Of a DNA stretch of 64,000 nucleotides, positions 19,281 to 52,489 are shown piece by piece. The notes below the pieces were generated by a model, which ran no database searches, was not told the DNA's origin, and worked only from the letters and a program-made list of their open reading frames with translations. This stretch comes from an uncultured Verrucomicrobiales bacterium (GTDB taxonomy: Bacteria > Verrucomicrobiota > Verrucomicrobiia > Verrucomicrobiales > Akkermansiaceae), in assembly GCA_937928545.1 (NCBI GenBank), contig CALGJQ010000008.1, positions 1-64,000 on the forward strand, read 5' to 3'. Both the position numbers and the translations under genes were made by a program. Numbering within the stretch: the stretch's first letter is position 1; every line of letters begins with the position of its first letter.

Positions 19281-19295
19281 AGTTAAGAAAAATGT

Positions 19296-26707: not shown

Positions 26708-26719
26708 CGTATTCAACCT

Positions 26720-27982: not shown

Positions 27983-28022
27983 TATTTCAAATTGTTTAAA
28001 AGCAAGCTACCAAGAATCGAGT

Positions 28023-28922: not shown

Positions 28923-28956
28923 TTTAATTTACAGTCTTTGTTCCTCGTTCTCACAA

Positions 28957-29649: not shown

Positions 29650-29689
29650 GTTTTTTGGTATTAAATTTAAAATTTCTCGGGAAATGGGT

Positions 29690-30895: not shown

Positions 30896-30908
30896 GACCG
30901 GATCTAAT

Positions 30909-33019: not shown

Positions 33020-33122
33020 AACTTTTTTCTATTAAATTTTAAGATGATTGAACATGTAGTATTTTTACTTGCGAGCTGTTTAAGGGAAGGGTTTCATTAG
33101 ATTTTTCTTATTTAAGGACAAG

Positions 33123-34634: not shown

Positions 34635-34642
34635 TTTAGCTT

Positions 34643-35308: not shown

Positions 35309-35338
35309 GGGGGGTTATTTGTTTCGAGAATAGGGAGT

Positions 35339-36475: not shown

Positions 36476-36476
36476 A

Positions 36477-37412
36477 CTAAGAAGAATTACCGATGAAACG
36501 GCGACGAAGACCACGAGCACGCTCAAGGAGTGAGAGTGCGACAGGAAAAGCGAGCGATAGTTTAAGGGCTTTTGTTCGTAAACCCCCGATTGCGCCAGAG
36601 GCCTGATCAATGAGCGCTTTGGCATCCTCTTTCCTATTTTCCGAAGCTAGAAAAGCTCCGCACCAAAAAAGCATCCGGGAAATACGGCGGCGATAGAACT
36701 CAGGTTTATTGCTCTGATCAATATAGTCCAAATAGACCGCAAGGCTCTCGGTCCACATCTTCACCCGATTCGACGAGGTGGCGGCTGCATGTTCACGATA
36801 ACCGATGATCTCATTATCCACCAAGACTGCTCGGCGCTCTTCCTGACCGAGTTTGATCATCAGATTAAGATCACAAACCACCCCACAATCTTCTCGGAAA
36901 ACTGCGAGCTCTTTTTTCAGAAGAACCGCGTTGATATTTACTGGAAAGGAATTCCCGACCACAAAATTTTCTAGATCAGGAACAACCCCCTCCTCGTGAA
37001 TATAATCCGAACGGCCAAGAACGCGATTTTCTTCCTCTACGATATAGGAAGCTCGGCCGATCAGAAGATCTGCATCTGGATATTTGCCTAGATTCCGAGC
37101 AAGCGTATCCAGCGCCCCAGGAAGTAGCATATCATCAGCAGAGAGAACCAATACCCAAGGTTGCGTGGCCATCTGAGCTGCCCGGTTGAGATTTGCAGCG
37201 AGGTGGACGTGCGTGTCCGCTACTTGAACTTTTAATCGGGGATCTTCAAAGCGTTGAATCACGTTAAGAGTTCCATCAGTCGAGACGTTCTCGCAAACAT
37301 TGACTTCGAAATTCGGGTAATCTTGATCTAAGACGCTCTGAATAGCTTCACCCACATAGTCCTCGCCGTTGTAGACGGGAATACAGATTGAAATAGGAGG
37401 GTAATATTTCAT
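36477..37412 (-). CDS. Glycosyltransferase family 2
   Basis: This 311-residue GT-A enzyme starts MKYYPPISICIPVYNGEDYV, then GEAIQSVLDQDYPNFEV, and has the metal-binding segment WVLVLSADDMLLPGALD with the Asp pair. It uses a nucleotide-diphospho-sugar and acts at the cytoplasmic membrane face. ATG at 37412 is preferred; the longer frame overlaps the flippase gene. It is the only GT2 in the locus. Confidence 0.92.
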   Translation of the reverse strand: MKYYPPISICIPVYNGEDYVGEAIQSVLDQDYPNFEVNVCENVSTDGTLNVIQRFEDPRLKVQVADTHVHLAANLNRAAQMATQPWVLVLSADDMLLPGALDTLARNLGKYPDADLLIGRASYIVEEENRVLGRSDYIHEEGVVPDLENFVVGNSFPVNINAVLLKKELAVFREDCGVVCDLNLMIKLGQEERRAVLVDNEIIGYREHAAATSSNRVKMWTESLAVYLDYIDQSNKPEFYRRRISRMLFWCGAFLASENRKEDAKALIDQASGAIGGLRTKALKLSLAFPVALSLLERARGLRRRFIGNSS

Positions 37413-37425
37413 AGACCACACACGT

Positions 37426-38718
37426 TTAAGAAGCTTCGCTGACGGTCCCACCGGCCTGACTCTTAGAGCAAATTTGATACGAAAGAATCAAAAGGTTCAA
37501 CAGTCCTGAGGCAATCATACCCCATGCGACACCACTAAGGCCATAGGTCTTTGTCAGAGGGAGGCCAACCAGCAAGCAAGCAATTGTTGCTCCTAGGTAG
37601 CCTTTCATGACTGCATCGGGGCGCTCGATAGCTCTCAGAGAAGCCGCGGTGACCATGATCAAGCCTGACAAAACGACTCCCCCACAGAAAAGAATGAGCA
37701 AAGAAGACGGTGCCTCATATTTACCGGCGTACAAGAGATTCATGACCCAATCTCCCCAAAAACCCAAAACAACCATCCAAACCAAGCCTGGAAATGCCAT
37801 AAAAAGTGATAGTCGAAAAACTGTTTTTAGATACCCTGGAGTGGAAGCCCGACGTACCAGAGAAGGTAGGATAATAGGAGAAATCGCTGCCTGAAACTGT
37901 AAAATCGGTAAAAGCACATTGAGAACTGCTCTCAATTCACCTGCCATTTCATCATAAAAAAATATTGGGATTACTAGAATATAGAGGTTCCCAGGGATCC
38001 AACTAAGCACATTCGCAACAACAGCCCAACGGCCATAACGAATGTGCTCTTTAATCGTACTGCGCTCATCAAATTTGTTTAGCGCAGGCGTAGAAACCTG
38101 ATTCAGCGATTCAAACTTAGGAGGGGAAGAAACAGTCCTTAGACGCATCATCAAAAATGCGGAAGAGACAACCGCTCCAAACATTAGAGCTAGCACACCA
38201 GTGGTGGCAGAAATTAGCTCAAATCTCCAAAGGCATGTTATGACTAAAAGTATATTGACGATATAAACGAATCCAGCCTCTGCTGAGATTCTAGGGCACC
38301 GCCAAAGGTGGCAACTCCGACGTAGCATCCATAGATAGAGTAAGGGGCCAGAAGCAATCGCAAAACAGCCTACCACTTTAATGACCGGCCAACTCGCGTA
38401 GCTTAAACCCACTATCCCAATAATTCCGATAATTGGGGGCCAGAAAAAACTCCAATGCCTTTTTTTAAGAAAACCTAAATAGTGAGAGAGCTGCTCCTTG
38501 TAACGAGAAGAGCCAAAAACCATCATAGGCTCCACCGTGAACGCATTAAAGACGATTAAACCGAAAGTATACAGCACGAACGCGATCGAAAAAACGGCGT
38601 AGTCATTTTCAGACAGCCAACGCGCGAGAAGGAGGTTGATCGCAAAATTCGAGATCGCAAATAGTGCCTGATCTGTGAAAGAAGCTACTAAGTAACCTAG
38701 TCGCTTTGTTGTAAACAT
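37426..38718 (-). CDS. Oligosaccharide flippase (Wzx type)
   Basis: This 430-residue protein has about 12 to 14 hydrophobic segments and starts MFTTKRLGYLVASFTDQALF, typical of polysaccharide transport proteins of the MOP superfamily that flip undecaprenyl-linked repeat units. WLSENDYAVFSIAFVLYTFG and the later GLSGVAWGMIASGLLNLLIL fit the family. It lies between the sulfotransferase and GT2 genes in the EPS operon. Confidence 0.9.
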   Translation of the reverse strand: MFTTKRLGYLVASFTDQALFAISNFAINLLLARWLSENDYAVFSIAFVLYTFGLIVFNAFTVEPMMVFGSSRYKEQLSHYLGFLKKRHWSFFWPPIIGIIGIVGLSYASWPVIKVVGCFAIASGPLLYLWMLRRSCHLWRCPRISAEAGFVYIVNILLVITCLWRFELISATTGVLALMFGAVVSSAFLMMRLRTVSSPPKFESLNQVSTPALNKFDERSTIKEHIRYGRWAVVANVLSWIPGNLYILVIPIFFYDEMAGELRAVLNVLLPILQFQAAISPIILPSLVRRASTPGYLKTVFRLSLFMAFPGLVWMVVLGFWGDWVMNLLYAGKYEAPSSLLILFCGGVVLSGLIMVTAASLRAIERPDAVMKGYLGATIACLLVGLPLTKTYGLSGVAWGMIASGLLNLLILSYQICSKSQAGGTVSEAS

Positions 38719-38759
38719 AAAGCAATTTTAATCAGGCAGCTAAGAAAATAAAATAGCCT

Positions 38760-39680
38760 TCAGGACCTCCACGGTAATTTACGACCGAGTAGTCGTTCTA
38801 GAGCCTCATTGTGGGGTCCAAAATGGGCTGTTAATTCCGAAATCATTTTCTCCGTGAAGTGCCTCTCTTTCGCTTTCCTCAAACCTTTCTTAGAAATCCA
38901 TAGCTTGATTCTCTTAGGCACTAACTTGGCTAATCCCCATTTCCAAACCAATGTCTTAACGAACTCAGATCGAAAAAATTGCGGCGGAGCAGCCCCTTCC
39001 TGAGTATTACCCACCTCTCCCATACGATCTGGGTCCAAGCCTACGAATTTCATCAATTCATCTAGGGTTCCTTCCTGATCTTTGATGAACTCTTCAAAGA
39101 TGATGACATGAAGCTGATCTCGTTTAAAAAGGTTCAAGTAAATTTGAAGCTGCTCAGCGTAATATCCAGTATCCACGAAAGTCCGATAGATTCCCAATCC
39201 ATGCCGTCTTCCCGGGCGCTCAAGATTCTGGTCATGGCCAGATTGCTCCTCAGGGGTCGTCATGCGTTTCCCCGATTGGATCCTAGCGAGATCCTCATGA
39301 ATGGCGTCTTCAAAAGAGAGATCCTCGTCTCCGTTGCGATGAAGCATCATCCAGTGAGAAAATGCACGTGCCACTGGATCTCGTAGAATCACCACCAATT
39401 TTGCCTGTGGATTGGTTTCGTAGATACGCTCCGCAACATATGGCAAGTAAAGATTACGGTGTCTCGAATCCCCGATTATGGGCTCACCCTGAAAGTGGCT
39501 AAAATACTTTTTATGATTAAAATCTTGGCCTTTCGAAAATTCAGTTTCGTAAAAAAAGGGCTCTTTAGGATCGGCCATACAGGCATCTGGATGCCGATCC
39601 AACATAGCGTGCAATGTCGTAGAGCCACATTTAGCCGCACCCAAAATAAAGAGATTAGGGAGAAATTCTAAAGGAGTCAT
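38760..39680 (-). CDS. Sulfotransferase (PAPS-dependent)
   Basis: This 306-residue protein matches the sulfotransferase family. The 5'-phosphosulfate loop is FILGAAKCGSTTLHAMLDRH (P-loop-like), and the 3'-phosphate region is VVILRDPVARAFSHWMMLHR. FYETEFSKGQDFNHKKYFSH is similar to heparan/carbohydrate sulfotransferases. It should move sulfate from PAPS onto a sugar hydroxyl. cysD, cysN and cysC in the same operon supply PAPS, so the EPS is probably sulfated. The start at 39680 has a good AAGGAG-like context (GAGTCAT on the plus strand). Confidence 0.92.
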   Translation of the reverse strand: MTPLEFLPNLFILGAAKCGSTTLHAMLDRHPDACMADPKEPFFYETEFSKGQDFNHKKYFSHFQGEPIIGDSRHRNLYLPYVAERIYETNPQAKLVVILRDPVARAFSHWMMLHRNGDEDLSFEDAIHEDLARIQSGKRMTTPEEQSGHDQNLERPGRRHGLGIYRTFVDTGYYAEQLQIYLNLFKRDQLHVIIFEEFIKDQEGTLDELMKFVGLDPDRMGEVGNTQEGAAPPQFFRSEFVKTLVWKWGLAKLVPKRIKLWISKKGLRKAKERHFTEKMISELTAHFGPHNEALERLLGRKLPWRS

Positions 39681-39711
39681 GAGATGTCAATTGTTCTAGA
39701 AGTCTGGCGGA

Positions 39712-40542
39712 CTAGGCAGGGATGAAGCTTTTGGCCTCATTTGGCCTAGGGGGGAGTGCGCCGAGCTTTAACTCTCCTTTGGCCTCTGTCTCTCGCCAAA
39801 TACTGCGGGCAAAATCTGCAACAGTCTGTGCCTTGCCAGAACCGACATGACGGATCTCAAGCTGCCCAGCTCCTAAAGCTTGCTCTTCAGCAGCATCCAC
39901 GAAAGCTTTCGCCACATCACTGACATGAACGAAATCTCGGACTTGATCTCCAGCTGTCATTTCAAGATCTTCACCGGAGAGGGCCGCAGCGCGGAGACTC
40001 GGCCAGAGTCTTCCCTCCGCTTCACCTGGCCCATAGACTTGAAAAATCCGAAGCATCTTCATGCCCACGCCCAATTCACGGACGAGAGACTGGAAAGCGA
40101 CTGTTGCCGCCGCCTTGGAGGCAGGGTAACTCGTAGTGGGCTCTAGGGGAGCATCGACCGGAATTTTTCCAAGGCGCTCACCAGCAGCTCCATACTCAAA
40201 GCAGGTTCCAGCTGATACAAAATGAGTCAAGCCAGCCGCTGCAGCTTTTCGAAACATCTCAATCGGATCGATAACATTCTTGCGAAGGCAATTCTCAAGC
40301 GTGTCGTACGGATAGTAGGCGGAGTGTGCCGCAAGATGGATCAATACTTCACACCCCAAAAAATCTGATTCATCAACCCCCGCGAGGTCTTTCTCTAGCC
40401 ACTGAGGTTCTTTCTCCAAAGAAATCCGTGGCCGGCTCTGAGCCGTTCTACGGAGAGCGACCACCTCATGGCTACGGCGATGAGCCTCATTCAGCAAATA
40501 GGAACCGATGAAGCCAGTCCCACCAGTCAAAAAGATTTTCAT
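39712..40542 (-). CDS. NAD-dependent epimerase/reductase (nucleotide-sugar SDR)
   Basis: This 276-residue SDR protein starts MKIFLTGGTGFIGSYLLNEA and has the catalytic Tyr-x3-Lys in TTSYPASKAAATV. RDFVHVSDVAKAFVDA is the usual nucleotide-sugar region. It overlaps the 3,5-epimerase-like gene by 4 bases and follows rfbG, so it probably reduces the 4-keto group of a CDP-6-deoxyhexose. An epimerase role is the alternative. Confidence 0.87.
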   Translation of the reverse strand: MKIFLTGGTGFIGSYLLNEAHRRSHEVVALRRTAQSRPRISLEKEPQWLEKDLAGVDESDFLGCEVLIHLAAHSAYYPYDTLENCLRKNVIDPIEMFRKAAAAGLTHFVSAGTCFEYGAAGERLGKIPVDAPLEPTTSYPASKAAATVAFQSLVRELGVGMKMLRIFQVYGPGEAEGRLWPSLRAAALSGEDLEMTAGDQVRDFVHVSDVAKAFVDAAEEQALGAGQLEIRHVGSGKAQTVADFARSIWRETEAKGELKLGALPPRPNEAKSFIPA

Positions 40543-41087
40543 TTGGAGTAAGCGAAAGGGCTCTGATACTCATCTAGCCCAATTAAAGTTTGGTCCTTAT
40601 CCGACACAATTGGGTTTTGCACAGGCCAATCATAACCAAAACTGTTCCAACGGATTCCAGAATCACAAGAAGGGTCGTGCCCCGTATCAGTGCAGTAGGT
40701 CACGAGGCTTTGATCCTTCAGCGCTAAAAAGCCGTGTGCAAAACCGCGAGGAATGAGCAGGACGTGACGATTCTCATCGTTTAGTTCAAAGGCCGCATAC
40801 TCACCAAAGGTGGGGGACCCTTTTCGCAAATCAACTACAACATCGATGATGGCTCCAGCAGCACAGCTAACTAACTTTTGATGGTCCGACTCTGGAGTCT
40901 GGAAATGCATTCCACGAACAACATCTCGGGCTGAAATTGAAAAAACAATCTCTTTCGGATCAATCGAAATGCCCATCTTGTTAAAGGCGACTCCGTTGAA
41001 GGTTTTTACAAATTCGCCTCTTTCGTCAAGGTGTTTGAACGCTTGGAGGAGTTTGAGTCCCGGCATGGTTTCTTTGATGAATTTCAT
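40539..41087 (-). CDS. dTDP-4-dehydrorhamnose 3,5-epimerase-like protein
   Basis: This 182-residue cupin-fold protein resembles RfbC/RmlC and the epimerases paired with CDP-sugars. Visible pieces are LKLLQAFKHLDERGEFVKTF, VFSISARDVVRGMHFQTPES with the catalytic His, DVVVDLRKGSPTFGEY and LIPRGFAHGFLAL. ATG at 41087 is preferred; an upstream TTG would overlap rfbG. It lies directly after rfbG, so its substrate is likely CDP-4-keto-6-deoxyglucose rather than the dTDP form. Confidence 0.88.
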   Translation of the reverse strand: MKFIKETMPGLKLLQAFKHLDERGEFVKTFNGVAFNKMGISIDPKEIVFSISARDVVRGMHFQTPESDHQKLVSCAAGAIIDVVVDLRKGSPTFGEYAAFELNDENRHVLLIPRGFAHGFLALKDQSLVTYCTDTGHDPSCDSGIRWNSFGYDWPVQNPIVSDKDQTLIGLDEYQSPFAYSK

Positions 41088-41095
41088 AAGAGTGA

Positions 41096-42205
41096 TTAAG
41101 ATGCCCAACCTACGCCCACTTCCTTAGCAGCTGCCTGATAGGCTTCAATCTGTCGGTTCGTGAAGGCCGTCATTACTCCCTCGGTTTTCTCATCCTCAAG
41201 ATACCAAGCTGCGGTTTTTTCGAGAGTCTCCTCGAAGGACCAGACGGGTTTCCACTCAAGAAGATGAAATGCTTTATCCGTGGCAAGATTCAGTTTCGAG
41301 GCTTCATGGAGGGCATTCGGATCAGAGGCATCTGACCACTCACCGTTAGTATGGATGATGAGTTCTTGAACCAATTCGGCAACGGTTCGATTGCTAGTAA
41401 GTGCTGGCCCGAAGTTAAATCCAGAGGCTACTTCCTCTCGCACCTGAGCACCGGGAACGTTACTTTGACCTAGTACTGCCCCCAACCAAAGATAACCAGA
41501 AAGAGGCTCCAAGACATGTTGCCACGGGCGGGTCGCAATCTTGTTGCGAACTGGAATAGATTCGCCATTCCTGAGAGCTCGGACGCAGTCAGGAACGATT
41601 CGGTCAGCCGCCCAGTCCCCCCCTCCAATGACATTTCCGGCTCGGGCGCTCGCTACTTTGACTTTCCCACTAGGTGGGAAAAAGGAGCGACGATAAGAAG
41701 AAATAACAATCTCAGCCGCTCCTTTACTCGCGCTGTAAGGGTCATGCCCACCCATCGCATCCTCCTCGCGATAGGCGTGCAGCCACTCGCGATTTTCATA
41801 ACATTTGTCAGTGGTGACGCAGACCACCGCGCAAGTATGATCTGACCGCCGGACGGCGTCCAGCAGGTGGGCCGTCCCTATCACATTGGTAGCGAAGGTC
41901 TCGACCGGAACGTCATAAGACAGCCGCACTAACGGTTGTGCTGCTAGGTGCAAGACAACCTCGGGCTGAGCTTCCGCGACTATTGCGGCAAGCCGCTCAC
42001 GCTCCTCTAAATCACCACGATGATCTGCGACGAGCCGCGCTCCTAAGCCAAGTTGGTCATAGAGGACCTCATTTGCTTGAGGATCCAACGCATACCCAGT
42101 CACTTCAGCACCGAGAGAAAGAAGCCATTCACAGAGCCAAGATCCTTTAAAACCAGTGTGGCCTGTCACGAAAACCTTGCGGCTTCGGTAATAATCATCA
42201 AACAT
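41096..42205 (-). CDS. rfbG: CDP-glucose 4,6-dehydratase
   Basis: This 369-residue SDR enzyme makes CDP-4-keto-6-deoxyglucose. The N-terminus has VFVTGHTGFKGSWLCEWLLS, the catalytic region is GGHDPYSASKGAAEIVISSY, and SARAGNVIGGGDWAADRIVP, PWQHVLEPLSGYLWL are RfbG hallmarks. Pairing with rfbF next door supports the name. The pathway leads to CDP-6-deoxyhexoses; the 3,6-dideoxy step enzyme (RfbH) is not in the window. Confidence 0.95.
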   Translation of the reverse strand: MFDDYYRSRKVFVTGHTGFKGSWLCEWLLSLGAEVTGYALDPQANEVLYDQLGLGARLVADHRGDLEERERLAAIVAEAQPEVVLHLAAQPLVRLSYDVPVETFATNVIGTAHLLDAVRRSDHTCAVVCVTTDKCYENREWLHAYREEDAMGGHDPYSASKGAAEIVISSYRRSFFPPSGKVKVASARAGNVIGGGDWAADRIVPDCVRALRNGESIPVRNKIATRPWQHVLEPLSGYLWLGAVLGQSNVPGAQVREEVASGFNFGPALTSNRTVAELVQELIIHTNGEWSDASDPNALHEASKLNLATDKAFHLLEWKPVWSFEETLEKTAAWYLEDEKTEGVMTAFTNRQIEAYQAAAKEVGVGWAS

Positions 42206-42257
42206 AAGTTAAAGTTTTTCAGCGAGACAAGGGGTGAAAAAAGTAAAAGAGCTCTTT

Positions 42258-43034
42258 TTAGCTCCACGTCTTCCATGGAGCCTTACCAGACTCCCACATC
42301 TCCTCAAGTTGGATCTTATCCCGCAGGGTGTCCATTGGACGCCAAAATCCGGCATGCTTGAATGCAGCGAGCTGCTGATCTGCAGCCAGCCCCTCAAGAG
42401 GCTCACGCTCCCAAGTCATCGCATCACCATGAATTCGATCAATCACAGAAGGGTTAAGAACAAAAAATCCCCCATTGATCCATGCTCCATCACCCTCAGG
42501 TTTTTCTTGAAACTGCTCAACTGCGCCCCCTTCTGAAATGGCTAAAGCCCCATAGCGTCCCGGAGGTTGGACCGCAGTCAGCGTGGCATCCAGCCCCTGC
42601 TCAGCATGAAATTTGATCAAGGCCGTGATATCAACATCTCCAACTCCGTCACCATAGGTGAAACAAAATGGCTCACCTGGATCAAGAAACTCCGCAACCC
42701 TCTTGAGACGGCCTCCGGTCATAGTGGCCTCGCCAGTATCAACTACTGTGATCTTCCACGGCTCAGCTTTCTTACGATGGACTTCCATCGTATTGCCAGT
42801 CATATCGATGGTAACGTCTGACATATGGAGGAAGTAATTTGCAAAATATTCCTTAATGACATAACCTTTGTAACCAGCACAAATCACAAAGTCATTAATT
42901 CCATGATCACTGTAGATTTTGAGAATATGCCAAAGAATTGGCTTCCCTCCAATCTCCACCATAGGCTTCGGCTTAAGACTGGTTTCTTCACTGAGACGAG
43001 TGCCGAGACCTCCGGCAAGAATGACTGCTTTCAT
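42258..43034 (-). CDS. rfbF: Glucose-1-phosphate cytidylyltransferase
   Basis: This 258-residue enzyme makes CDP-glucose from CTP and glucose 1-phosphate. It starts MKAVILAGGLGTRLSEETSL, then KPKPMVEIGGKPILWHILKI, and has FCFTYGDGVGDVDI and RPMDTLRDKIQLEEMW, which are RfbF signatures. It sits 52 bases before rfbG; that gap contains a perfect palindrome (AAAAGAGCTCTTTT, 42245-42258) of unknown meaning. Confidence 0.96.
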   Translation of the reverse strand: MKAVILAGGLGTRLSEETSLKPKPMVEIGGKPILWHILKIYSDHGINDFVICAGYKGYVIKEYFANYFLHMSDVTIDMTGNTMEVHRKKAEPWKITVVDTGEATMTGGRLKRVAEFLDPGEPFCFTYGDGVGDVDITALIKFHAEQGLDATLTAVQPPGRYGALAISEGGAVEQFQEKPEGDGAWINGGFFVLNPSVIDRIHGDAMTWEREPLEGLAADQQLAAFKHAGFWRPMDTLRDKIQLEEMWESGKAPWKTWS

Positions 43035-43069
43035 AAAAATATTTGAATTAAGGAGTAGATGATCTGTAA

Positions 43070-44314
43070 TTAGAGAATCATACCTGCGGCCACCGTTTCA
43101 TTGGTGCCTGGGTCGATAAGGATGAATGAACCGGTCTGACGGTTTTGATTATAGGAATCGTAGAAAAGAGGAGAGGCTGTCCTGAGGGAAATTCGTCCAA
43201 TCTCATTGAGAGCAAAACTGCTCGTATCCTCCTCTTTACGAAGAGTATTAATGTCGATTTTGTAGCTAATTGCTTGGACAATTGCTTTGGTCTCTTTAGT
43301 GGTATGGCGAATAATAAACTTCCCTTTGGGATTGAGGTTGGTGTTTGAGAACCAACAGATCATCGCTTCAATGTCCTGCCCTTGCTGAGGCGGGTTATTT
43401 GCTTTCACCAACATGTCACCACGAGACAGATCGATTTCATCCTCAAGGGTAATTGTAACCGATTGAGGGGCATAGGCTTGTTCCAGCTCACTCTCGTCTT
43501 GGTAAACCTTTTTAACTTTGGTGGAGAAACCTGAGGGCATGACGGTGACATCATCACCCGGCTTAAAGACGCCGCCGGCAACACGCCCCGCAAAGCCACG
43601 GAAGTCGTGAAACTTCTCACTCTGAGGACGGATGACCCATTGGACTGGAAAACGGGCTTGAACGTGATTTTCGTCACCTCCTACGTATACGTTTTCAAGG
43701 TGATAGAGAAGACTGGACCCTTCAAACCAATCCATGTTTTCTGATTTATCGACGATGTTGTCACCATTCAGTGCGGAGATGGGAATGGGGGTGATATCGA
43801 CGATATTATCGAGTCGGGAGGCGAAGGCCTTATAGTCTGCCATAATCCCGTCGTAAACTTCTTGGCTGTAATCGACCAGGTCCATCTTATTAACCGCAAC
43901 GACCACGTGCTGGATGCGGAGGAGATTCGCAATAAAGCTATGGCGTTTCGTTTGCTCAATGACCCCCTTGCGCGCATCAATCAGGATAATTGCAAGATTC
44001 GCGGTGGAGGCACCAGTAACCATGTTGCGAGTGTACTGGATGTGACCAGGGGTATCAGCGATAATAAACTTTCGCTTGGGAGTTGCGAAGTAACGATAAG
44101 CAACATCAATCGTGATACCTTGCTCACGTTCTGCTTTGAGACCATCAGTAAGGAGAGCGAGGTTGACATTTTCATCACCTTTCTTACGTGATGATTCTTC
44201 GATCGCTCTAAGTTGGTCCTCAAAAATGGATTTTGAGTCATAAAGCAATCGACCGATAAGAGTTGACTTACCGTCATCAACTGAGCCGGCGGTGGTAAAA
44301 CGTAGGAGGTCCAT
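43070..44314 (-). CDS. cysN: Sulfate adenylyltransferase subunit 1 (GTPase)
   Basis: This 414-residue GTPase activates sulfate together with CysD, forming APS. The G-domain pieces are TAGSVDDGKSTLIGRLLYDS (G1), DTPGHIQYTRNMVTGASTAN (G3) and VVAVNKMDLVDYS (G4), followed by EF-Tu-like domains II and III (FRGFAGRVAGGVFKPGDDVT). The ATG at 44314 gives the normal MDLLRFTTAGSVDDGKST beginning; 20 further upstream codons are not conserved. cysN is separated from cysD by a secreted-protein gene. Confidence 0.96.
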   Translation of the reverse strand: MDLLRFTTAGSVDDGKSTLIGRLLYDSKSIFEDQLRAIEESSRKKGDENVNLALLTDGLKAEREQGITIDVAYRYFATPKRKFIIADTPGHIQYTRNMVTGASTANLAIILIDARKGVIEQTKRHSFIANLLRIQHVVVAVNKMDLVDYSQEVYDGIMADYKAFASRLDNIVDITPIPISALNGDNIVDKSENMDWFEGSSLLYHLENVYVGGDENHVQARFPVQWVIRPQSEKFHDFRGFAGRVAGGVFKPGDDVTVMPSGFSTKVKKVYQDESELEQAYAPQSVTITLEDEIDLSRGDMLVKANNPPQQGQDIEAMICWFSNTNLNPKGKFIIRHTTKETKAIVQAISYKIDINTLRKEEDTSSFALNEIGRISLRTASPLFYDSYNQNRQTGSFILIDPGTNETVAAGMIL

Positions 44315-44351
44315 AAAGAGAGTGGAGATGATAAATTGTGACTGGTTCGAT

Positions 44352-45659
44352 CTATTTGCTCTTATCCTCAACAAGAAGTCCGTTGAGTGCGAATATCTTT
44401 TGATCTACCTCTTTAGTCGATTGCCCTAGCGATTCAGCGCTCGGTCCAAATGACTCACAAATGAAAGCGGCAGGACGGGTGATTTCAATTCTTAGGGAAT
44501 GAACAATTAAAGTATCTCCGCGAATATCAGCGATTTTGGACCCCACGGACCCTGACATATATAGTCGCAAAAAATCAAACTTACTTAAAGACGTCCCCTC
44601 GACAACTTCGGATTTCCATTTGCCTATCTTTCCTTCTGTTCGCTCTCCAAGCGGGAAGCCTCCCCCTTGCTGGTAGCTCCAACCTGACACCTTCCGGTTA
44701 GACTTAGGAACCAAATACTCGAAAGTAATCTTGAATCCAGAACTGACATTTTCAGGAGGTAGAGTTCCAGGCGGTAGACTAATCATGGGATTCTTTGCTT
44801 TCTCATTGATAGTCAGAATCAGACCCGATTTCCCATCCACTTCAACGACCTTTCCTGAATCAATATCTAATGCCACGAGTGGCTCTAGGCCTTCTTTATC
44901 AAACTTGTGATCAAAGACTGTAAATGATTCACCTTGGAAGCCTTCAGCTCCTAAAAATCCTCCAAGCCTGAGGGCACTAGTCTCTCCCTTTTCTTTTTTG
45001 GATCCAGTGATCTCTACCACGTTTTCGATCGGACTATCGAATGAAACTTTTCCTTCCGTATCATATCTCACCAGAACCTCAATATTGTCGCCTTGGCGCC
45101 GAAGTCGGAAAGCACTTTTTGCACCACCGCTTTTTCCCACTCTTTTGAGAAACTGGCGGGCACCTACGATACTCGGAGCTATTTTCAAGGATTCTTGCTG
45201 GGCCTTAACTTTCAAGGCACTCTCTAAATCACCATTCTTAGTGAGAGTGGTCGCAAATTTTTCCAAGAGCTTGTCCATTTTGTCAGCACTTTTAACGAGA
45301 GCTTCACCGTGTTCTTGCTGAATTCTAATGTAGGATTTTGTGAATAGTTTGCGGGCGGAAATCAGACCAGAAGGAGCTGTCGGTCTGAGGGCAGTGAGAG
45401 GCCATTTTCCCTGCGAAACTTCGGTAATTTCTTTCTTAACCCGAAGCGCGTCATTGAGCCTATTTCCGTTCTGATACTTTATCTGAAGTTTCTGAAGAGC
45501 CTCTTGGTAACTACCACCTAATTTTGTCGTTTTTGTTTCCAGAGTTTTTTGAATCCTAAGCTCATGAGCTTTGAAAGACGCCAACAGCTCCGTAAGGGAC
45601 TCACCAAAAATAGGTGCCCCCAGGAGGACGTTTACCAGAAAAATCAGGAGGATCTTCAT
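44352..45659 (-). CDS. Secreted coiled-coil hypothetical protein between cysD and cysN
   Basis: This 435-residue protein has a signal peptide (MKILLIFLVNVLLGAPIFGE), a helical region with repeated pieces (LGGSYQEALQKLQIKYQNGN, RLNDALRVKKEIT; KMDKLLEKFATTLTKNGDLE, SALKVKAQQE) and a beta-rich C-terminal half. The helical repeats resemble those common in secreted proteins of Planctomycetota and Verrucomicrobiota. I do not recognise a function. Its position inside the sulfate activation genes is unexpected, since cysD and cysN are usually adjacent. Confidence 0.8.
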   Translation of the reverse strand: MKILLIFLVNVLLGAPIFGESLTELLASFKAHELRIQKTLETKTTKLGGSYQEALQKLQIKYQNGNRLNDALRVKKEITEVSQGKWPLTALRPTAPSGLISARKLFTKSYIRIQQEHGEALVKSADKMDKLLEKFATTLTKNGDLESALKVKAQQESLKIAPSIVGARQFLKRVGKSGGAKSAFRLRRQGDNIEVLVRYDTEGKVSFDSPIENVVEITGSKKEKGETSALRLGGFLGAEGFQGESFTVFDHKFDKEGLEPLVALDIDSGKVVEVDGKSGLILTINEKAKNPMISLPPGTLPPENVSSGFKITFEYLVPKSNRKVSGWSYQQGGGFPLGERTEGKIGKWKSEVVEGTSLSKFDFLRLYMSGSVGSKIADIRGDTLIVHSLRIEITRPAAFICESFGPSAESLGQSTKEVDQKIFALNGLLVEDKSK

Positions 45660-45684
45660 GCTGCCATTATCTCACAAGGGGCGC

Positions 45685-46590
45685 TTAAAAATACCCCTCT
45701 TTTTTTCGATCTTCCATTGCAGTTTCAGAGCGTTTGTCATCTGCACGGTTGCCTCGCTCGGTCTGGCGAGCGGCTGCGACTTCTTCAATGATTTTCTCGA
45801 TGGTATCAGCGCTGGACTCGACAGCACCTGTGATAGTGGCATCACCCATCGTGCGAAAACGGATCATTTTGTTTTCAACAACTTCACTCTCTCGTGGCTG
45901 AACAAACTCCGAGACAGCGAGAATAACGCCATTCCTAGTCACAGTGTCGCGTTTGTGTGCGTAGTAGAGGCTGGGAAGTTCGATGCCTTCCTGCTTCATG
46001 TACATCCACACGTCCATCTCAGTGAAGTTTGAAAGGGGAAAAACACGAAAATTTTCACCAGGTTGCTTTCGACCATTGAAGAGGTTCCAGAGCTCAGGAC
46101 GCTGGTTTTTAGGATCCCATTCGCCAAAGTCATTGCGATGAGAAAAGAATCGCTCTTTTGCCCGAGCCTTCTCTTCATCACGACGGCCTCCTCCAAGGAC
46201 AGCATCGTACTGCTGCTCTTCGATCGTCTCGAGAAGAGTGACCGTTTGGAGTTTGTTTCGAGAAGCATTGAGGCCAGTTTCCTCAACAGCCGTTCCCTTG
46301 TTAATAGAGTCTTGAACTAGGCCGACGTGGAGACGCGCTCCAATTTTATCAGCATAAGCATCGCGAAAGCTAATTGTTTCAGGAAAATTATGCCCCGTAT
46401 CAACGTGCACAAGAGGGAAAGGAATCCGGCTTGGATAAAATGCTTTTTTGGCAAGGTGTGCCATAACGATTGAGTCCTTACCCGCCGAGAATAGGAGGCC
46501 TGGATTCTCGAACTGAGCAGCTGTTTCACGGAGAATGAAGATCGCTTCAGCCTCCAGCTGATCGAGATGGCTTAAGTTATAGTCTGCCAT
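45685..46590 (-). CDS. cysD: Sulfate adenylyltransferase subunit 2
   Basis: This 301-residue ATP-pyrophosphatase forms APS from ATP and sulfate. Signature pieces are LLFSAGKDSIVMAHLAKKAF (PP-loop), PFPLVHVDTGHNFPETISFR, DAVLGGGRRDEEKARAKERF and FPLSNFTEMDVWMYMKQEGI. The end (SSADTIEKIIEEVAAARQTE, then RGNRADDKRSETAMEDRKKEGYF split by the limit) is the typical CysD tail. It lies between cysC and the secreted-protein gene. Confidence 0.97.
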   Translation of the reverse strand: MADYNLSHLDQLEAEAIFILRETAAQFENPGLLFSAGKDSIVMAHLAKKAFYPSRIPFPLVHVDTGHNFPETISFRDAYADKIGARLHVGLVQDSINKGTAVEETGLNASRNKLQTVTLLETIEEQQYDAVLGGGRRDEEKARAKERFFSHRNDFGEWDPKNQRPELWNLFNGRKQPGENFRVFPLSNFTEMDVWMYMKQEGIELPSLYYAHKRDTVTRNGVILAVSEFVQPRESEVVENKMIRFRTMGDATITGAVESSADTIEKIIEEVAAARQTERGNRADDKRSETAMEDRKKEGYF

Positions 46591-46694
46591 AAGATTATTA
46601 AATTTATCAGGTTAATCAGGAATTAGCGAAAGCTGGGTGGTAATTTGAGGAGAGGAGCTTGGCAAGTTTTTTCACTTCATCCGCTGCCATCCTA

Positions 46695-47285
46695 TTAGGA
46701 GGCCATGGAAAGAAGCTCAATAACTTGAGCGGCAGACTCCATGACTTCAGTCGTTTCAGTGTCTACGATGAGCTCGGCAAACTCGGGTTCTTCGAAGCCC
46801 GAATCCTTGCCGGTAAACTGCTTGATTTCTCCAGACTCCACTTTGGCGTATAAGCCTTTCGGATCTCTTTTAGCACAAGTTTCAAAGGAGGCCTTAATGT
46901 AGATTCCCTGAAATCCTGATCCGACAATCTGGCGAGCACTTGAACGAAAAACTTTCTTCGGAGTAATGACACTCACAATGACGATCGCTCCCTGACTCGC
47001 GAACATCTTAGCAACTTCGGCAACGCGACGGACGTTCTCCTCGCGGTCTTTGTCACTAAAGCCCAAATCAGAATTCAGACCGTGGCGAAAGTTATCACCA
47101 TCAAGGATAACGACATAGCGACCCAAGTCATGTAAGGTCCGCTCAACTGCAGCGGCGATTGTGGATTTCCCTGATCCACTTAAGCCATACATCCAAAGAA
47201 CAGTTCCTTTTTGGCCTAGCAGCTCAGCTTTCTCGTCTGGCGAAACGAAACGATGGAACTGGGTATGGATATTATTCTGAGACAT
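46695..47285 (-). CDS. cysC: Adenylyl-sulfate kinase
   Basis: This 196-residue enzyme phosphorylates APS to PAPS. The P-loop is WMYGLSGSGKSTIAAAVERT; VILDGDNFRHGLNSDLGFSD, DREENVRRVAEVAKMF and IKASFETCAKRDPKGLYAK are family hallmarks. PAPS is the sulfate donor for the sulfotransferase in the same operon. No PAPS reductase or sulfite reductase gene is nearby, which points to sulfation rather than assimilation. It overlaps the GT26 gene by 14 bases. Confidence 0.97.
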   Translation of the reverse strand: MSQNNIHTQFHRFVSPDEKAELLGQKGTVLWMYGLSGSGKSTIAAAVERTLHDLGRYVVILDGDNFRHGLNSDLGFSDKDREENVRRVAEVAKMFASQGAIVIVSVITPKKVFRSSARQIVGSGFQGIYIKASFETCAKRDPKGLYAKVESGEIKQFTGKDSGFEEPEFAELIVDTETTEVMESAAQVIELLSMAS

Positions 47286-48030
47286 GATCCTTCAGTGAAT
47301 AGTAGAGAAAGAGACTATTGTGGACCGCATAGCGCTTAAAAAGTCTTCGCGGTTCAGCGCAAAGACGATAGAGCCACTCCATTCCAAGCTTCTGAACTAA
47401 GGCGGGAGCTTGTTTAACTTCTCCGGCGTGAAAAGCGAAAGCTGCTCCAACTCCAAAATAGACCGCGGGAGGCAGGCTATCGAGATGATCGGAAATCCAA
47501 GATTCTTGTTTCGGACAACCGAGCCCCACCCAAACATAATTAGCGCGTGATTCTTGAATGAGCTTCATAATTTTCTGATGCTCGTCATCCGGCCATTCCC
47601 CAAATGGAGGCGAATAGATTCCCGAAATATGGTTCTTCGAGAAACGTTCTTTGAGTTTGTCGAGAGTACTTTGAGAACCTCCTAGAAAGAAGTGCCCTTG
47701 ATTACCATCACCCTCTGTCGCCTTCAGCACTTCTAACATAAGTGAGGGGCCATAAACTCGGTCGGTCAGCTTCTCTGATTCTGGAAGTTGAGTATTCAAG
47801 GTCCAGACGAGAGGCATTCCGTCAGGGCAAATAAGATCAAACCTTCGCATGACTTTTCCATACTCTTCATCATGCCTCGCATGAGAAAGGAGATGGGTAT
47901 TCGCAGCACTTACCGCATAGGGCCGGTCTCCAAGCTTGGCTCGATCAACGCACCAATCCCTAGCTTCTTCGTAGTGTGTTACCGCTACGGGGAAGCCAAT
48001 GACTGGCTTGGTTTTTAGGGAGATAGCCAA
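47272..48030 (-). CDS. WecG/TagA/CpsF family glycosyltransferase
   Basis: This 252-residue protein matches GT26: YAVSAANTHLLSHARHDEEY, ICPDGMPLVWTLN, VYGPSLMLEVLKATEGDG, FLGGSQSTLDKLKERF and WVGLGCPKQESWISDHLDSL. It transfers a sugar, often ManNAc-type, onto a lipid-linked acceptor. The start is TTG at 48030; no in-frame ATG is close. GAGGG of the gmd end may act as its ribosome binding site. Confidence 0.9.
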   Translation of the reverse strand: MAISLKTKPVIGFPVAVTHYEEARDWCVDRAKLGDRPYAVSAANTHLLSHARHDEEYGKVMRRFDLICPDGMPLVWTLNTQLPESEKLTDRVYGPSLMLEVLKATEGDGNQGHFFLGGSQSTLDKLKERFSKNHISGIYSPPFGEWPDDEHQKIMKLIQESRANYVWVGLGCPKQESWISDHLDSLPPAVYFGVGAAFAFHAGEVKQAPALVQKLGMEWLYRLCAEPRRLFKRYAVHNSLFLYYSLKDHVSE

Positions 48031-48036
48031 TGTATT

Positions 48037-49155
48037 TTAACCCTCGGTTGCAACAGAAACCTTGTGACCATGTTTCTTAAGAAGAGCGTGTTGCTTTGCT
48101 TTTTCGAGGTCATGCGCGACCATCTCAGAACACATTTCTTCAACCGTAATTTCAGGAACCCATCCGAGCTTCTCTTTCGCCTTAGAAGGGTCACCGAGGA
48201 GAGTCTCCACTTCTGCTGGGCGGAAGTAACGCGGATCTACTTTCACGATGACATCACCAACCTTAAGTGCAGGTGACTTTTCTTGATCAACTGACTTGAT
48301 GGTGGCTATTTCCTCAATTCCCTCACCGGAAAATTCTAGCTCAATTCCAGCTTCTTTTGCCGAAAGACTGACAAACTCACGAACTGAAATTTGTTTGCCT
48401 GTCGCGATGACGTAATCTTCAGCGCTATCTTGTTGAAGCATCATCCACTGCATTCGCACGTAGTCTTTGGCGTGGCCCCAGTCTCGTAGAGCATCCATAT
48501 TTCCAAGGAAGAGACACTTCTCCAGTCCTTGGGAAATATTGGCAATGGCGCGGGTGATTTTTCGAGTTACGAAAGTCTCACCGCGACGTGGCGATTCATG
48601 GTTAAAAAGAATTCCGTTACAAGCATACATCCCATAAGACTCTCGATAGTTCACCGTGATCCAGTAGGCATACATTTTCGCAGCTGCGTAGGGGCTACGA
48701 GGATAGAATGGCGTTGTCTCCTTCTGAGGAATCTCTTGAACTTCACCAAAAAGTTCCGAAGTAGATGCCTGATAAAAACGAGTCTTCTTTTCGAGACCCA
48801 AAAAGCGAATCGCTTCCAACAGGCGTAGTGTTCCAATCGCATCAACATCCGCGGTGTATTCTGGAGATTCAAAGGAAACGGCGACGTGCGACTGAGCACC
48901 CAAGTTATAGACCTCGTCCGGCTGAACTTCGCTGATGATTCGCGTGAGGTTCGATGTATCAGTCAGATCACCGTAGTGCAGCTTAAAGCGAGCACTCTCA
49001 ACGTGTGGATCTTCATAAATATGATCAACTCGCTCCGTGTTGAATGAAGACGCACGGCGCTTAATACCGTGAACTTCGTATCCTTTTTCTAGCAAAAACT
49101 CTGCGAGATAGGATCCATCTTGACCGGTGATTCCAGTGATAAGGGCCTTTTTCAT
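48037..49155 (-). CDS. gmd: GDP-mannose 4,6-dehydratase
   Basis: This 372-residue SDR enzyme starts GDP-fucose synthesis from GDP-mannose. Visible are [68 protein letters not shown] and [20 protein letters not shown] (Tyr-x3-Lys). The C-terminus ([20 protein letters not shown]) fits well. fcl follows upstream in the operon order, completing the GDP-L-fucose pathway. Confidence 0.97.
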
Positions 49156-49167
49156 AAGTCGTGTTTT

Positions 49168-50103
49168 TTAAAGTCGAGCTGTTCCCGAATCGAGAGTTGC
49201 TAAAAAGTCTTGATAAGCTCCTGCCAATCCATCGGCAAAGGAGATCTTCGCTTTCCAGCCCGTTTCATTGAGACTTGAAACGTCCAAAAGTTTACGAGGA
49301 GTGCCGTCTGGCTTACTCGGATCAGTTGTGATTTCTCCCTCGAAGCCAACTGTCTTGGCAACGAGCTGAGCGAGTCCCAAGATTGTCACGTCTTCACCGA
49401 CGCCCAAGTTAACCCAGTCTGGTGGATCGGCGTGATCAAGAAGGTGAAAACAAGCCTCCGCAAGATCATCAACATGGAGAAACTCGCGACGTGGAGTCCC
49501 ACTCCCCCAAATCTGAACCTCTTTATCGCCTCGTTCTTTTGCTTCGTGAAAGCGGCGAATCAAAGCTGGAATAACGTGGGAATTTTCGGGGTGATAATTG
49601 TCACCTGGCCCGTAGAGGTTCGTCGGCATTGCCGAATGATACATCAATCCATACTGAGCTCGATAATGCTGACACATTTTCAGACCTGCAATTTTGGCGA
49701 CCGCATAGGCTTCGTTGGTCACTTCAAGCGGGCTTGTCAAAAGACAATCTTCTGGCATCGGCTGTGGAGCCATTTTGGGATAAATACAGGAACTGCCGAG
49801 AAAGAGAACCCGCTCGATTCCCGCTTGCCGAGATCCCTCAATCAGATTTGTCGCAATCACGAGATTCTCGTAGATGAATTCGGCAGGGTAAGTCGAATTT
49901 GCGTGAATCCCTCCTACCTTTGCGGCCGCGATAACAACTTGATCCGGCTTGTTTTCGGCCAACCACTGGTGACATGCCGATTGATCTAGGAGATTTAGTT
50001 CATCTCGTGTGGCCGTGAGGACCTCAAAGCCTCCTCGTTTCTCGGCCTCCCGAACAAGCGCCGAACCAACCATACCGCGATGTCCTGCAATAAAAATTTT
50101 CAT
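49168..50103 (-). CDS. fcl: GDP-L-fucose synthase
   Basis: This 311-residue enzyme epimerises and reduces GDP-4-keto-6-deoxymannose to GDP-L-fucose. It starts [20 protein letters not shown], and has [60 protein letters not shown] (Tyr-x3-Lys) and [20 protein letters not shown]. It overlaps the aminotransferase gene by 4 bases and precedes gmd by 12 bases. Confidence 0.97.
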
Positions 50104-51212
50104 GACTTAAAAAAGGAATTTACAACTTTGGCAACTCGTTCACGCCGTTCGTCCCCCAGTTCTGCATAAACTGGAATACTCAAAACCTCCTGCGCCAGTT
50201 TTTCCGCAACTGGTAATTTTGTTTCCGGCAGCTGGTTGAAGCACTCTTGCTTGTGTAAAGGAACGGGATAGTAGATTTCGCAACCCACGTCGTTTTCCAG
50301 AAGGTGAGCTTTTAGAGCATCTCTTTCACCATGCACCTTCATCGTAAATTGATTCCAAATCACCCCATCATCCGCTCCGCCTGATAGAGGTAGAGTTACG
50401 CGGGATGAATCTAACTCAGCAAACTCCGCTAAATAGTAGGCAGCATTTTCAGCTCGCCCGCGTCCATAAGAATCAAGGTGCGGTAGCTTTTTTCTTAAGA
50501 GAGCTGCTTGTAAGGCATCAATCCTGAAATTTCCTCCAACCTCCGAATGGTAATACTTTGGAAACATTCCGTGGTTTCTCAAACGCTTCACCGCCTCCGC
50601 TCGCTCGTCGTCATCGCAACTCACCAACCCAGCATCACCAAAGCCACCGAGATTCTTCGATGGAAAAAAACTATAAGTTCCAAAGTCCCCCATCGTGCCG
50701 CACTTCTTACTACAAATCGAAGCTCCGAGCGACTGAGCGGTATCTTCGATCACCACCAAGGAGTGTTTTCTCGCGAAAGCTTTTACCTTCCCCATCGCAG
50801 CACACCTTCCAAACAAATGAACCGGCACAATCGCCTTGGTCCTTTCATTTACCAAGTCATCCGCGCCTCTCAGATCGAGGTTAAAGCTTTCTTCATCTGA
50901 ATCCACAAAGACCGGAACAGCTCCAATTCGCATAATGCTCCCTGCGGTCGCGAAAAAGGTAAACGAAGGACAAATGACTTCATCACCGGCCGTCACGCCC
51001 GCCGCCATTAGAGCCACAATCAAGGCATCCGTGCCCGAAGAAACCCCTATTGCATGTGCCGTTCCTAGATAACTAGCAGCTTCTTCTTCAAAAGCCTCAA
51101 CCTCCGGACCTAAAATAAAGTAACCAGAATCTAAGACGCCCTCAAATGCTTCCATCAGCTCATTCTTCAATCCCGCATTTTGAGCAGGAACGTCTAACAA
51201 TGGGACTTTCAC
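50100..51212 (-). CDS. DegT/DnrJ/EryC1/StrS family aminotransferase (first EPS gene)
   Basis: This 370-residue PLP enzyme probably aminates a keto-sugar nucleotide. Pieces: [72 protein letters not shown] and [20 protein letters not shown]-like [16 protein letters not shown] with the PLP lysine. The start is GTG at 51212 with a GAGG site about ten bases upstream. It is the first gene of the 30-kb EPS operon. The ops-like element ends 15 bases before the start codon. Confidence 0.93.
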
Positions 51213-51226
51213 AGTAGATTTGACCT

Positions 51227-51238
51227 CACGCTACCGCC
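51227..51238 (-). promoter_or_regulatory. ops-like element (RfaH/NusG-paralogue recruitment site)
   Basis: The minus strand reads GGCGGTAGCGTG, an exact 12-base match to the ops element of enterobacterial RfaH-controlled operons. It lies in the leader of the EPS operon, between the likely promoter and the first start codon, and a gene for an RfaH-like protein is immediately upstream. In enterobacteria RNA polymerase pauses at ops and RfaH binds the exposed non-template strand. Whether that holds here is inference. Confidence 0.75.
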
Positions 51239-51249
51239 CTTGGTCGATC

Positions 51250-51265
51250 ATTCTTCGGAAAGAAT
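51250..51265 (-). promoter_or_regulatory. Small hairpin upstream of the ops-like element
   Basis: ATTCTT and AAGAAT form a 6-bp stem around a TCCG loop in the EPS leader RNA, ending about 11 bases before the ops-like site. It could act as a pause hairpin. No T tract follows, so it is not a terminator. Confidence 0.4.
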
Positions 51266-51332
51266 AAAACCTTGGGAAGTCTTCGGGGATTTGTGGGTTG
51301 TTGCAGGGCATCAACTCAGTGGGTTGAAAGGA

Positions 51333-51361
51333 ATCACAAAGCTAAGGCTTGTTCAATTCAA
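51333..51361 (-). promoter_or_regulatory. Candidate EPS operon promoter
   Basis: On the minus strand TTGAAT (51361-51356) and TGTGAT (51338-51333) are separated by 17 bases, giving a plausible housekeeping promoter. The -35 lies inside the palindromic operator, so a bound regulator would block it. The predicted leader is about 110 bases and contains the hairpin and ops-like site. Confidence 0.4.
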
Positions 51362-51370
51362 AATGAACAA
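51349..51370. promoter_or_regulatory. Palindromic operator, copy 1 (EPS promoter)
   Basis: TTGTTCA-N8-TGAACAA with perfect 7-bp arms. It differs from copy 2 at one position of 22, a spacer base. It lies between the RfaH-like gene and the EPS operon and overlaps the candidate -35. It is probably bound by the GbsR/MarR-type protein encoded at 51941-52441. Confidence 0.7.
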
Positions 51371-51940: not shown

Positions 51941-52441
51941 CTAGCGCCCCAAGAATTTTTGCAAGAGTGGCAAAACCACCTTCGCTTGCTTTGTCCAGCG
52001 TCCCAAACGCTCTAATCTTCCCGCATAAAAATCTGCCCGAGTATCTCCAGGCATCTCCGCCACCATCTCCTTTAAATTTTTCAACTTCCCCTCCCCACTC
52101 GCCAAGTGCGGCCTCACCTGCTCCTTGATAAAGCCCCCTACCAACTGCTTCAACTCGACATCTGGCTCATAGTAACTCTTCCGCCCCTCGCTCGCGTCAG
52201 ATTCCTTAACCGCTCCCAATTCCCGCAACATTTTTAGCCCCTGGCTCGCCGACCCCTTACTAATCCCCAAGCGCTTCACCAAGTCATCAAGCGACAGCGC
52301 CTCTTGCGACACATAAAGAAGCCCATAAATTTCCCCAATCGATTTAGGTAAACCCAGAATCCGCACCCCATCACAAAAGAAATCAATCACCTGAGCCTCA
52401 AATTCGCTCAATTTCACCTCTTCGTTCACCTCACCGGACAT
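51941..52441 (-). CDS. GbsR/MarR-type transcriptional regulator
   Basis: This 166-residue protein looks like a winged helix-turn-helix regulator of the GbsR branch of MarR proteins: LSEFEAQVIDFFCDGVRILG, LPKSIGEIYGLLYVSQEALS, LDDLVKRLGISKGSASQGLK (recognition helix) and MLRELGAVKESDASEGRKSY. The rest is helical and likely for dimerisation or ligand sensing. The ligand is unknown. It is followed 3 bases later by the RfaH-like gene, and palindromes lie both before it and after that gene, which suggests self-regulation plus control of the EPS operon. Confidence 0.88.
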   Translation of the reverse strand: MSGEVNEEVKLSEFEAQVIDFFCDGVRILGLPKSIGEIYGLLYVSQEALSLDDLVKRLGISKGSASQGLKMLRELGAVKESDASEGRKSYYEPDVELKQLVGGFIKEQVRPHLASGEGKLKNLKEMVAEMPGDTRADFYAGRLERLGRWTKQAKVVLPLLQKFLGR

Positions 52442-52467: not shown

Positions 52468-52489
52468 TTGTTCAATTTAAAATGAACAA
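52468..52489. promoter_or_regulatory. Palindromic operator, copy 2 (regulator promoter)
   Basis: TTGTTCA-N8-TGAACAA again, 26 bases before the regulator start codon and directly against the stop codon of the upstream sulfatase gene. Its match with copy 1 (21 of 22) is much closer than expected for unrelated intergenic sequence. It likely serves autoregulation. Confidence 0.7.

Follow-up and report, generated by a model that had tools for sequence, protein, structure and literature searches.

A candidate ops-type recruitment element for an RfaH-like NusG paralogue ahead of an exopolysaccharide locus in Verrucomicrobiota

Is the recruitment of a specialized NusG paralogue by an ops element confined to Proteobacteria? 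In E. coli, ops is the short signal by which the elongation factor RfaH is brought to RNA polymerase. The question is raised by a stretch of 64,000 nucleotides from an uncultured Verrucomicrobiales bacterium of the family Akkermansiaceae (contig CALGJQ010000008.1 of assembly GCA_937928545.1, positions 1 to 64,000; the whole stretch is called the window in the following). An exact ops sequence, GGCGGTAGCGTG, is present at 51227-51238 on the minus strand, which also encodes the genes further downstream, and is located between the gene for an RfaH/UpxY-type NusG paralogue and a run of about 28 kb of genes for a sulfated exopolysaccharide (EPS). A preliminary description of the locus had pointed out the exact match and an RfaH-like protein encoded directly upstream, and both are borne out. 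The assignment to Verrucomicrobiota holds as well, the closest relatives with a name being metagenome-assembled genomes from Akkermansiaceae/Verrucomicrobiales. In the accessible text of PMC7593976, RfaH is described as mostly limited to Proteobacteria and ops recognition is placed late in RfaH evolution; the JUMPstart element is listed for Gammaproteobacteria in that of PMC2864571. Our literature search, in which subscription journals were thinly covered, found no report dealing with ops or with the function of RfaH in Verrucomicrobiota. We favor, with a probability of roughly 0.78, the reading that the RfaH-like NusG paralogue is recruited at this site, a JUMPstart/ops-type element beside its gene; ops-type recruitment is then probably not confined to Proteobacteria. 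The features concerned are the following.

51227..51238, minus strand: ops core GGCGGTAGCGTG, conserved in orthologous leaders and proposed to act in pausing and recruitment
51225..51275, minus strand: whole element (GGTT, stem-loop, GACC-AAG, ops), matched by our model R1 with E 1.3e-9 and 45.8 bits
51386..51937, minus strand: RfaH/UpxY-type NusG paralogue of 183 amino acids (P0001), proposed reader of the element
50100..51212, minus strand: DegT/PseC-type aminotransferase gene, the first gene behind the element
23020..51212, minus strand: sulfated-EPS gene run of about 28 kb (fucose pathway, adenosine 5'-phosphosulfate (APS) kinase, CysD, sulfotransferase, epimerases, glycosyltransferases)

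It is the place of GGCGGTAGCGTG together with its conservation that lifts it above chance. The exact sequence occurs once in the 3.98-Mb genome, and so does a reversed control pattern. Five matches to ops with up to two mismatches in the window compare with 2.7 expected, and at least five were obtained in 18 of 100 shuffles, such that this count is not unusual. The odds of 1 in 100,000 originally given for a chance exact match agree with 175 positions at 4^-12, an estimate made after the fact. A chance match of a 12-mer, for which it speaks that matches with up to two mismatches are expected in a window of this kind, is refuted by the conservation in orthologous leaders, with covariation and co-occurrence (see below) as further arguments, and we give it practically no weight. 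The nearest downstream open reading frame (ORF) begins with GTG at 51212, and a scan of the leader for promoters found no sigma-70-type site.

Orthologues of the paralogue, one each, were found in 113 of the 145 genomes of the family at E<=1e-15, and the leaders of 110 of them were read (G050, G058 and G104 were left out). Within the first 400 bases behind the paralogue stop codon, ops with up to two mismatches is present in 65 of the 110 leaders (11 exact, 32 with one and 22 with two mismatches), compared with 2/110 on the other strand and 4/106 and 2/103 in two windows further down. The mean for 300 permuted 12-mers was 2.8 leaders, including one shuffle identical to ops, and a near-shifted one reached 37. 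The core GGCGGN[A/C]GC follows the paralogue in 77 of the 110 leaders at a median of 155 bases; G1-G5, G8 and C9 are fixed by the search pattern, and invariance at these positions is therefore a matter of selection. In the 77 core leaders, position 6 is occupied by C (47), T (24), A (5) or G (1), position 7 by A in 72, position 10 by G in 46 and T in 26, position 11 by T in 69 and position 12 by G in 60. Upstream of the core, C-5 and C-4 are fixed, G-7, A-6 and A-3 are nearly fixed, and GGTTT is found at about -32 to -28, while columns -70 to -34 and +12 to +49 reach at most about 0.3 bit. When the element was located via the upstream motif YGACCRNK alone, the full core was present in 73 of 95 matches, the remainder of which look unrelated, and in 0 of 26 on the other strand. 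C3, G5 and G8 all belong to this core, which is either complete or absent in the elements located in this way, but position 6 switches between T and C in species with paralogues that are 96-97% identical. Lack of conservation in orthologous leaders had been named in the preliminary description as the outcome that would speak against its reading; instead, 77 of the 110 leaders keep the core while the outer flanks drift.

The layout of GGTY, a covarying stem-loop, GACC-AAG and GGCGGYAGCKTG is larger than ops. As a genome-wide marker, GGCGGYAGCKTG was rejected; it is too short, its copies are about as numerous as those of controls in most genomes, and it is also present in genus g3 without the paralogue. 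Leaders L097, L116, L120 and L124 from genus g11 feature a variant, GGCGGACGC, after ACCAAT or TCCAAT, where R1 finds little or nothing; this is possibly a drifted element. At L045, GGCGGTCGCGTG, with one mismatch to ops, precedes the paralogue match by 63 bases, in addition to the usual copy behind the gene.

Does the element occur together with the paralogue? Model R1 was built from 32 Akkermansiaceae leaders alone and finds one strong site in the genome under study, with a runner-up match at E 0.029. Within the family, at E<=1e-3, element and paralogue are both present in 105 genomes, 32 of which contributed to R1; eight genomes have the paralogue only, one has the element only and 31 have neither. 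As a control, R1 was run against 299 genomes from the phylum of a Gammaproteobacteria metagenome-assembled genome, taken as Pseudomonadota. This gave 39 matches in 31 of the 299 genomes at E<=0.01 and none at E<=1e-4 (best E 2.7e-4). Twenty of the 39 were examined: three, including the best, are JUMPstart elements according to Rfam (54.7-58.7 bits), two (L196, L213) resemble JUMPstart and 15 look like chance. Since E<=0.01 thus includes chance matches, 1e-4 was used for the counts in the phylum. A second control, the group of G405, gave matches in 2 of 295 genomes and is weak, many of these genomes being small. In a sample of 288 genomes from the phylum, the element is present in 30, belonging to families f1, f2, f3, f10, f12, f13, f17, f20 and f24, and the paralogue in 62 (protein profile, E<=1e-20, within a gap from 2.1e-25 to 4.3e-19). 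All 30 genomes with the element also contain the paralogue, and 22 of them lie outside the family from which R1 was built (p about 7e-18, kinship ignored). Between 1e-4 and 0.01, 30 more genomes are matched, 11 of which have the paralogue, a rate indicating that this range holds chance matches. Genera g1, g8, g9, g13 and g16 each have members without both element and paralogue, suggestive of repeated joint loss.

The element is not restricted to the vicinity of the paralogue gene. Many genomes from genera g10 and g12 have no core behind the paralogue and carry the element on other contigs, and genome G052 has 11 element matches at E<=0.05. The scanned ORFs behind such distant copies include those for APS kinase (L159, L162, L174), UDP-galactopyranose mutase (L164, L165, L166), a flippase-type protein (L160), an epimerase (L168), a nucleotidyltransferase (L175), a DUF218 protein (L173) and a pectate-lyase-like protein (L176), and the second site at L162 precedes a gene for phosphoenolpyruvate mutase with a cytidylyltransferase domain. 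The UDP-glucose dehydrogenase gene at L170 and the epimerase gene at L178 are situated close to that for the paralogue. No Pfam match was obtained for the ORFs tested at L171 and L172, and the second ORF at L172 encodes an ABC transporter; L161, L163, L167 and L169 were left out of the ORF scan. Copies of the element before further polysaccharide and sulfation genes imply a regulon that would be served in trans. They also bear on the notion that the element is nothing more than a strong consensus pause combined with a pause hairpin, serving for example translation coupling or the timing of folding, and that it does not recruit the neighboring paralogue. A pause consensus leaves the fixed positions 3-5 and 7-9 and the CCA unexplained, and the same holds for the link between element and paralogue across families, including the copies distant from the paralogue gene. 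We consider this notion very improbable.

Which part of the element would be read, DNA or RNA? Between GGTY and GACC, a stem-loop is present, the sequence of which varies between genomes. Covariation was assessed in the 32 of the 77 leaders that have equal spacing, with a structure written after the leaders had been viewed. Changes on both sides occur in 7 of 11 pairs, with 61 such cells compared to 20 in shuffles, and 92.3% of the cells can pair compared to 78.2% in shuffles, a figure that falls to 24-55% when the partner is slid by 1-3 columns; the rows are related and the comparison with shuffles is no probability. The predicted fold of the element in the window (-12.5 kcal/mol, z -1.1) is not exceptional when taken alone, and single-fold z values of other elements are -0.1 (L022), -3.7 (L081) and -2.5 (L032). 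LoaP from Bacillus, likewise encoded beside its operon and associated with a leader hairpin, reads a nascent RNA hairpin, and it is conceivable that the verrucomicrobial paralogue does so as well, with GGCGG only causing a pause or contributing to an RNA site. The retention of the hairpin by covariation, the sequence conservation of GGTY and RACC at its base and the fact that the residues with which RfaH reads T6 are mostly not kept would all fit. However, the most conserved stretch is CCA-N-K-GGCGGN[A/C]GC and not the hairpin, its letters match the DNA element read by RfaH, and the paralogue scores lower with LoaP (NF033641, 53.4 bits, under the cut-off of 125) than with RfaH (78.5 bits). To our knowledge, LoaP has no ops. 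Recognition mainly of RNA is an unlikely explanation in our view.

The genome contains two genes for NusG-domain proteins, a housekeeping one and the paralogue P0001. Its score of 78.5 bits with the RfaH equivalog TIGR01955 is under the curated cut-off of 144.5, and the scores with UpxY (NF033644; 75.9 bits, cut-off 100) and NusG (60.6 bits) are likewise under the respective cut-offs. UpxY from Bacteroides resembles P0001 in that the gene is located beside a capsule/EPS operon and in that the UpxY score comes close to that for RfaH; we know of no ops for UpxY. According to the accessible text of PMC7819879, UpxY works in leaders upstream of its own gene, whereas the element described here is downstream of the paralogue gene. 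RfaH is autoinhibited by an alpha-helical C-terminal domain. An AlphaFold2 model of P0001 is mostly confident for the N-terminal domain but mixed and of low confidence for the C-terminal domain, which contains a helix at 145-157, and NusG and RfaH-ops complexes rank first in a Foldseek search. For RfaH, the accessible text of PMC5995543 describes that T6 flips into a pocket formed mainly by H20, R23, Q24 and R73, that G5 is read as well and that C3:G8 closes the hairpin; the RfaH pause site, the contacts with the loop and the way in which NusG is excluded are also dealt with in the accessible parts of PMC5995543, PMC11001881 and PMC7593976. In an L-INS-i alignment, P0001 has Q13, N23 and P76 at the positions of the ops-reading residues K10, H20 and R73, three contacts of RfaH according to PMC5995543. 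Among 104 orthologues, K is found at the K10 site in 5 and H at the H20 site in 41, while the five commonest residues at the R73 site do not include R. Invariant in the paralogues are K15, R16 and E17 as well as the stretch K41-x-T-R-R-G...W50...F55-P56-x-Y58, making these residues candidates for contacts with the loop. The paralogues sampled from Verrucomicrobiota (f1, f12, f17, f20, f24) form one clade (100/99) that is not nested in the gammaproteobacterial RfaH-type rows; outgroup rows are few, and the gammaproteobacterial paralogue L216 groups with NusG. A transfer together with the locus, which the preliminary description had offered as an option, finds no support as a recent event in this clade of five families; the tree speaks against recent transfer and not against ancient transfer or convergence.

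How close, then, is the relationship to JUMPstart? Both have a leader hairpin followed by ops, CCARGGGCGGTAGCGTG in the system from Gammaproteobacteria (RF01707), reside before long polysaccharide operons and are associated with a NusG paralogue, with several targets per genome in some relatives. The RF01707 layout of a stem-loop and then GGGCGGUAGCGUG is found in the window as stem-loop, GACCAAG and GGCGGTAGCGTG, and an ops element is present in target leaders as for RfaH. Locus L103 can be aligned with RF01707 from end to end (UGG...CCA, then GGGCGGUAGCGUG), and the elements from family f12 (L143, L145, L150) pair TTGG with CCAA as JUMPstart does. In contrast to JUMPstart/RfaH, the verrucomicrobial system has a longer hairpin in two parts, mostly C at position 6 (T in ops) and G or T at position 10, its paralogue is encoded beside a target and belongs to a clade apart from the sampled RfaH proteins, and the cut-offs for RfaH and Rfam are not reached.

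A number of observations weigh against the reading of the site as a recruitment element for the paralogue. Genome G025 has the element, and no paralogue was found in it; conversely, 32 of the 62 paralogue-containing genomes in the phylum sample are without the element at E<=1e-4, and 33 of the 110 leaders lack the core. Most paralogues have other residues at the sites of K10 and R73, and C prevails at position 6. RF01707 matched only one of 13 loci (L103 with 25.6 bits, below the gathering cut-off of 35), had no match in the window or in 13 further loci and was above its cut-off in 0 of 11 genomes. RNAalifold, applied to a MAFFT alignment of 70 leaders, returned two pairs within ops but failed to find a covarying hairpin, because hairpin lengths differ; left out of this alignment were L015 and L066 (unread bases), L125 (incomplete) and the GGCGGACGC leaders L097, L116, L120 and L124. 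As the RfaH cut-off, the RfaH residues and the Rfam gathering cut-off all gave negative outcomes, the system is classed neither as RfaH proper nor as RF01707. Still, it probably works like them, and the simplest reading of the sequences would be an RfaH-type hairpin with a different, looser loop contact. Conservation, covariation and the joint occurrence with the paralogue lend good support to the proposal from the preliminary description that ops-type recruitment extends to Verrucomicrobiota, while its alternative of a joint transfer finds no support as far as a recent event is concerned; the upstream hairpin, the distant copies, the MarR/GbsR-like gene described below and the looser position 6 had been overlooked.

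The sequences show the element, its conservation, the covariation of the hairpin, the joint occurrence with the paralogue and what kinds of genes follow; by analogy with E. coli RfaH we infer pausing, a DNA hairpin, binding and antitermination at this locus. RNA polymerase transcribing the EPS leader would form the RNA hairpin first and then pause at ops, where the exposed non-template strand would fold into a small hairpin with C3:G8 as its closing pair. The paralogue would bind to the loop of that DNA hairpin with its N-terminal domain, remain on the polymerase, exclude NusG and Rho and carry the polymerase along all 28 kb of the gene run. Further polysaccharide and sulfation operons with the element may also be served in trans by this protein in relatives. 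A separate control of initiation is probable, and the features pertinent to this are the following.

51941..52441, minus strand: MarR/GbsR-like regulator gene, 166 amino acids (best NCBIfam match CudC, 46.9 bits, below the cut-off of 218), proposed to control initiation
51349..51370, no strand assigned: palindrome TTGTTCA-N8-TGAACAA in the EPS leader, proposed operator of the MarR/GbsR-like protein
52468..52489, no strand assigned: second, near-identical palindrome, ahead of the regulator gene

The MarR/GbsR-like gene is found directly upstream of the paralogue gene in 110 of 110 cases. Of the 77 leaders that have the ops core, 68 contain the palindrome TTCA-N7-9-TGAA; it is absent from all 33 leaders lacking the core and from all 110 control windows, and it precedes the regulator gene in 102 of 110 cases. 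In genera g10 and g12, it is located upstream of 9 of 13 ops sites (eight at 134-141 bases, one at 239), in g7 upstream of one of three and outside the family upstream of none of four. The two palindromes are probably the operator set for a second layer of control, in which the MarR/GbsR-like protein would act on initiation at the palindrome and the paralogue on elongation.

What would such a system mean beyond this locus? According to the accessible text of PMC7593976, it is unknown how operon-encoded NusG paralogues are recruited, and a JUMPstart-like element that is accompanied by such a paralogue in nine families from a different phylum is a candidate recruitment signal for paralogues of this kind. 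Tentatively, and with somewhat less than even odds, the combination of hairpin and ops may be an old recruitment code for NusG paralogues that is shared across phyla and predates proteobacterial RfaH, with loop position 6 and the protein pocket having diverged toward T6 in RfaH and a tolerant pyrimidine, mostly C, in Verrucomicrobiota. If so, operon-encoded paralogues whose mode of recruitment is called unknown would be recruited by sequence as well. The accessible part of PMC11001881 asks if other factors are recruited by ops-like hairpins that have A, G or C in the loop. The leaders compiled here, in which C, T and A occur at the loop position, form a natural set and come with a candidate reader, by which this question becomes directly testable.

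The genes from 51212 to about 23020 are mainly for polysaccharide biosynthesis, sulfation and glycosyl transfer, including GDP-fucose genes, and would form one operon as judged from strand and spacing; several ORFs in the run 23020..51212 had no Pfam match. Beyond the EPS genes, genes for DUF1501, DUF1800 and ThuA/DUF7453 proteins follow on the same strand at 15694-21782. Upstream of the regulator gene, a sulfatase-like gene is situated at 52490-54028, with arylsulfatase as the best NCBIfam match, below the cut-off, which fits a locus for a sulfated polysaccharide.
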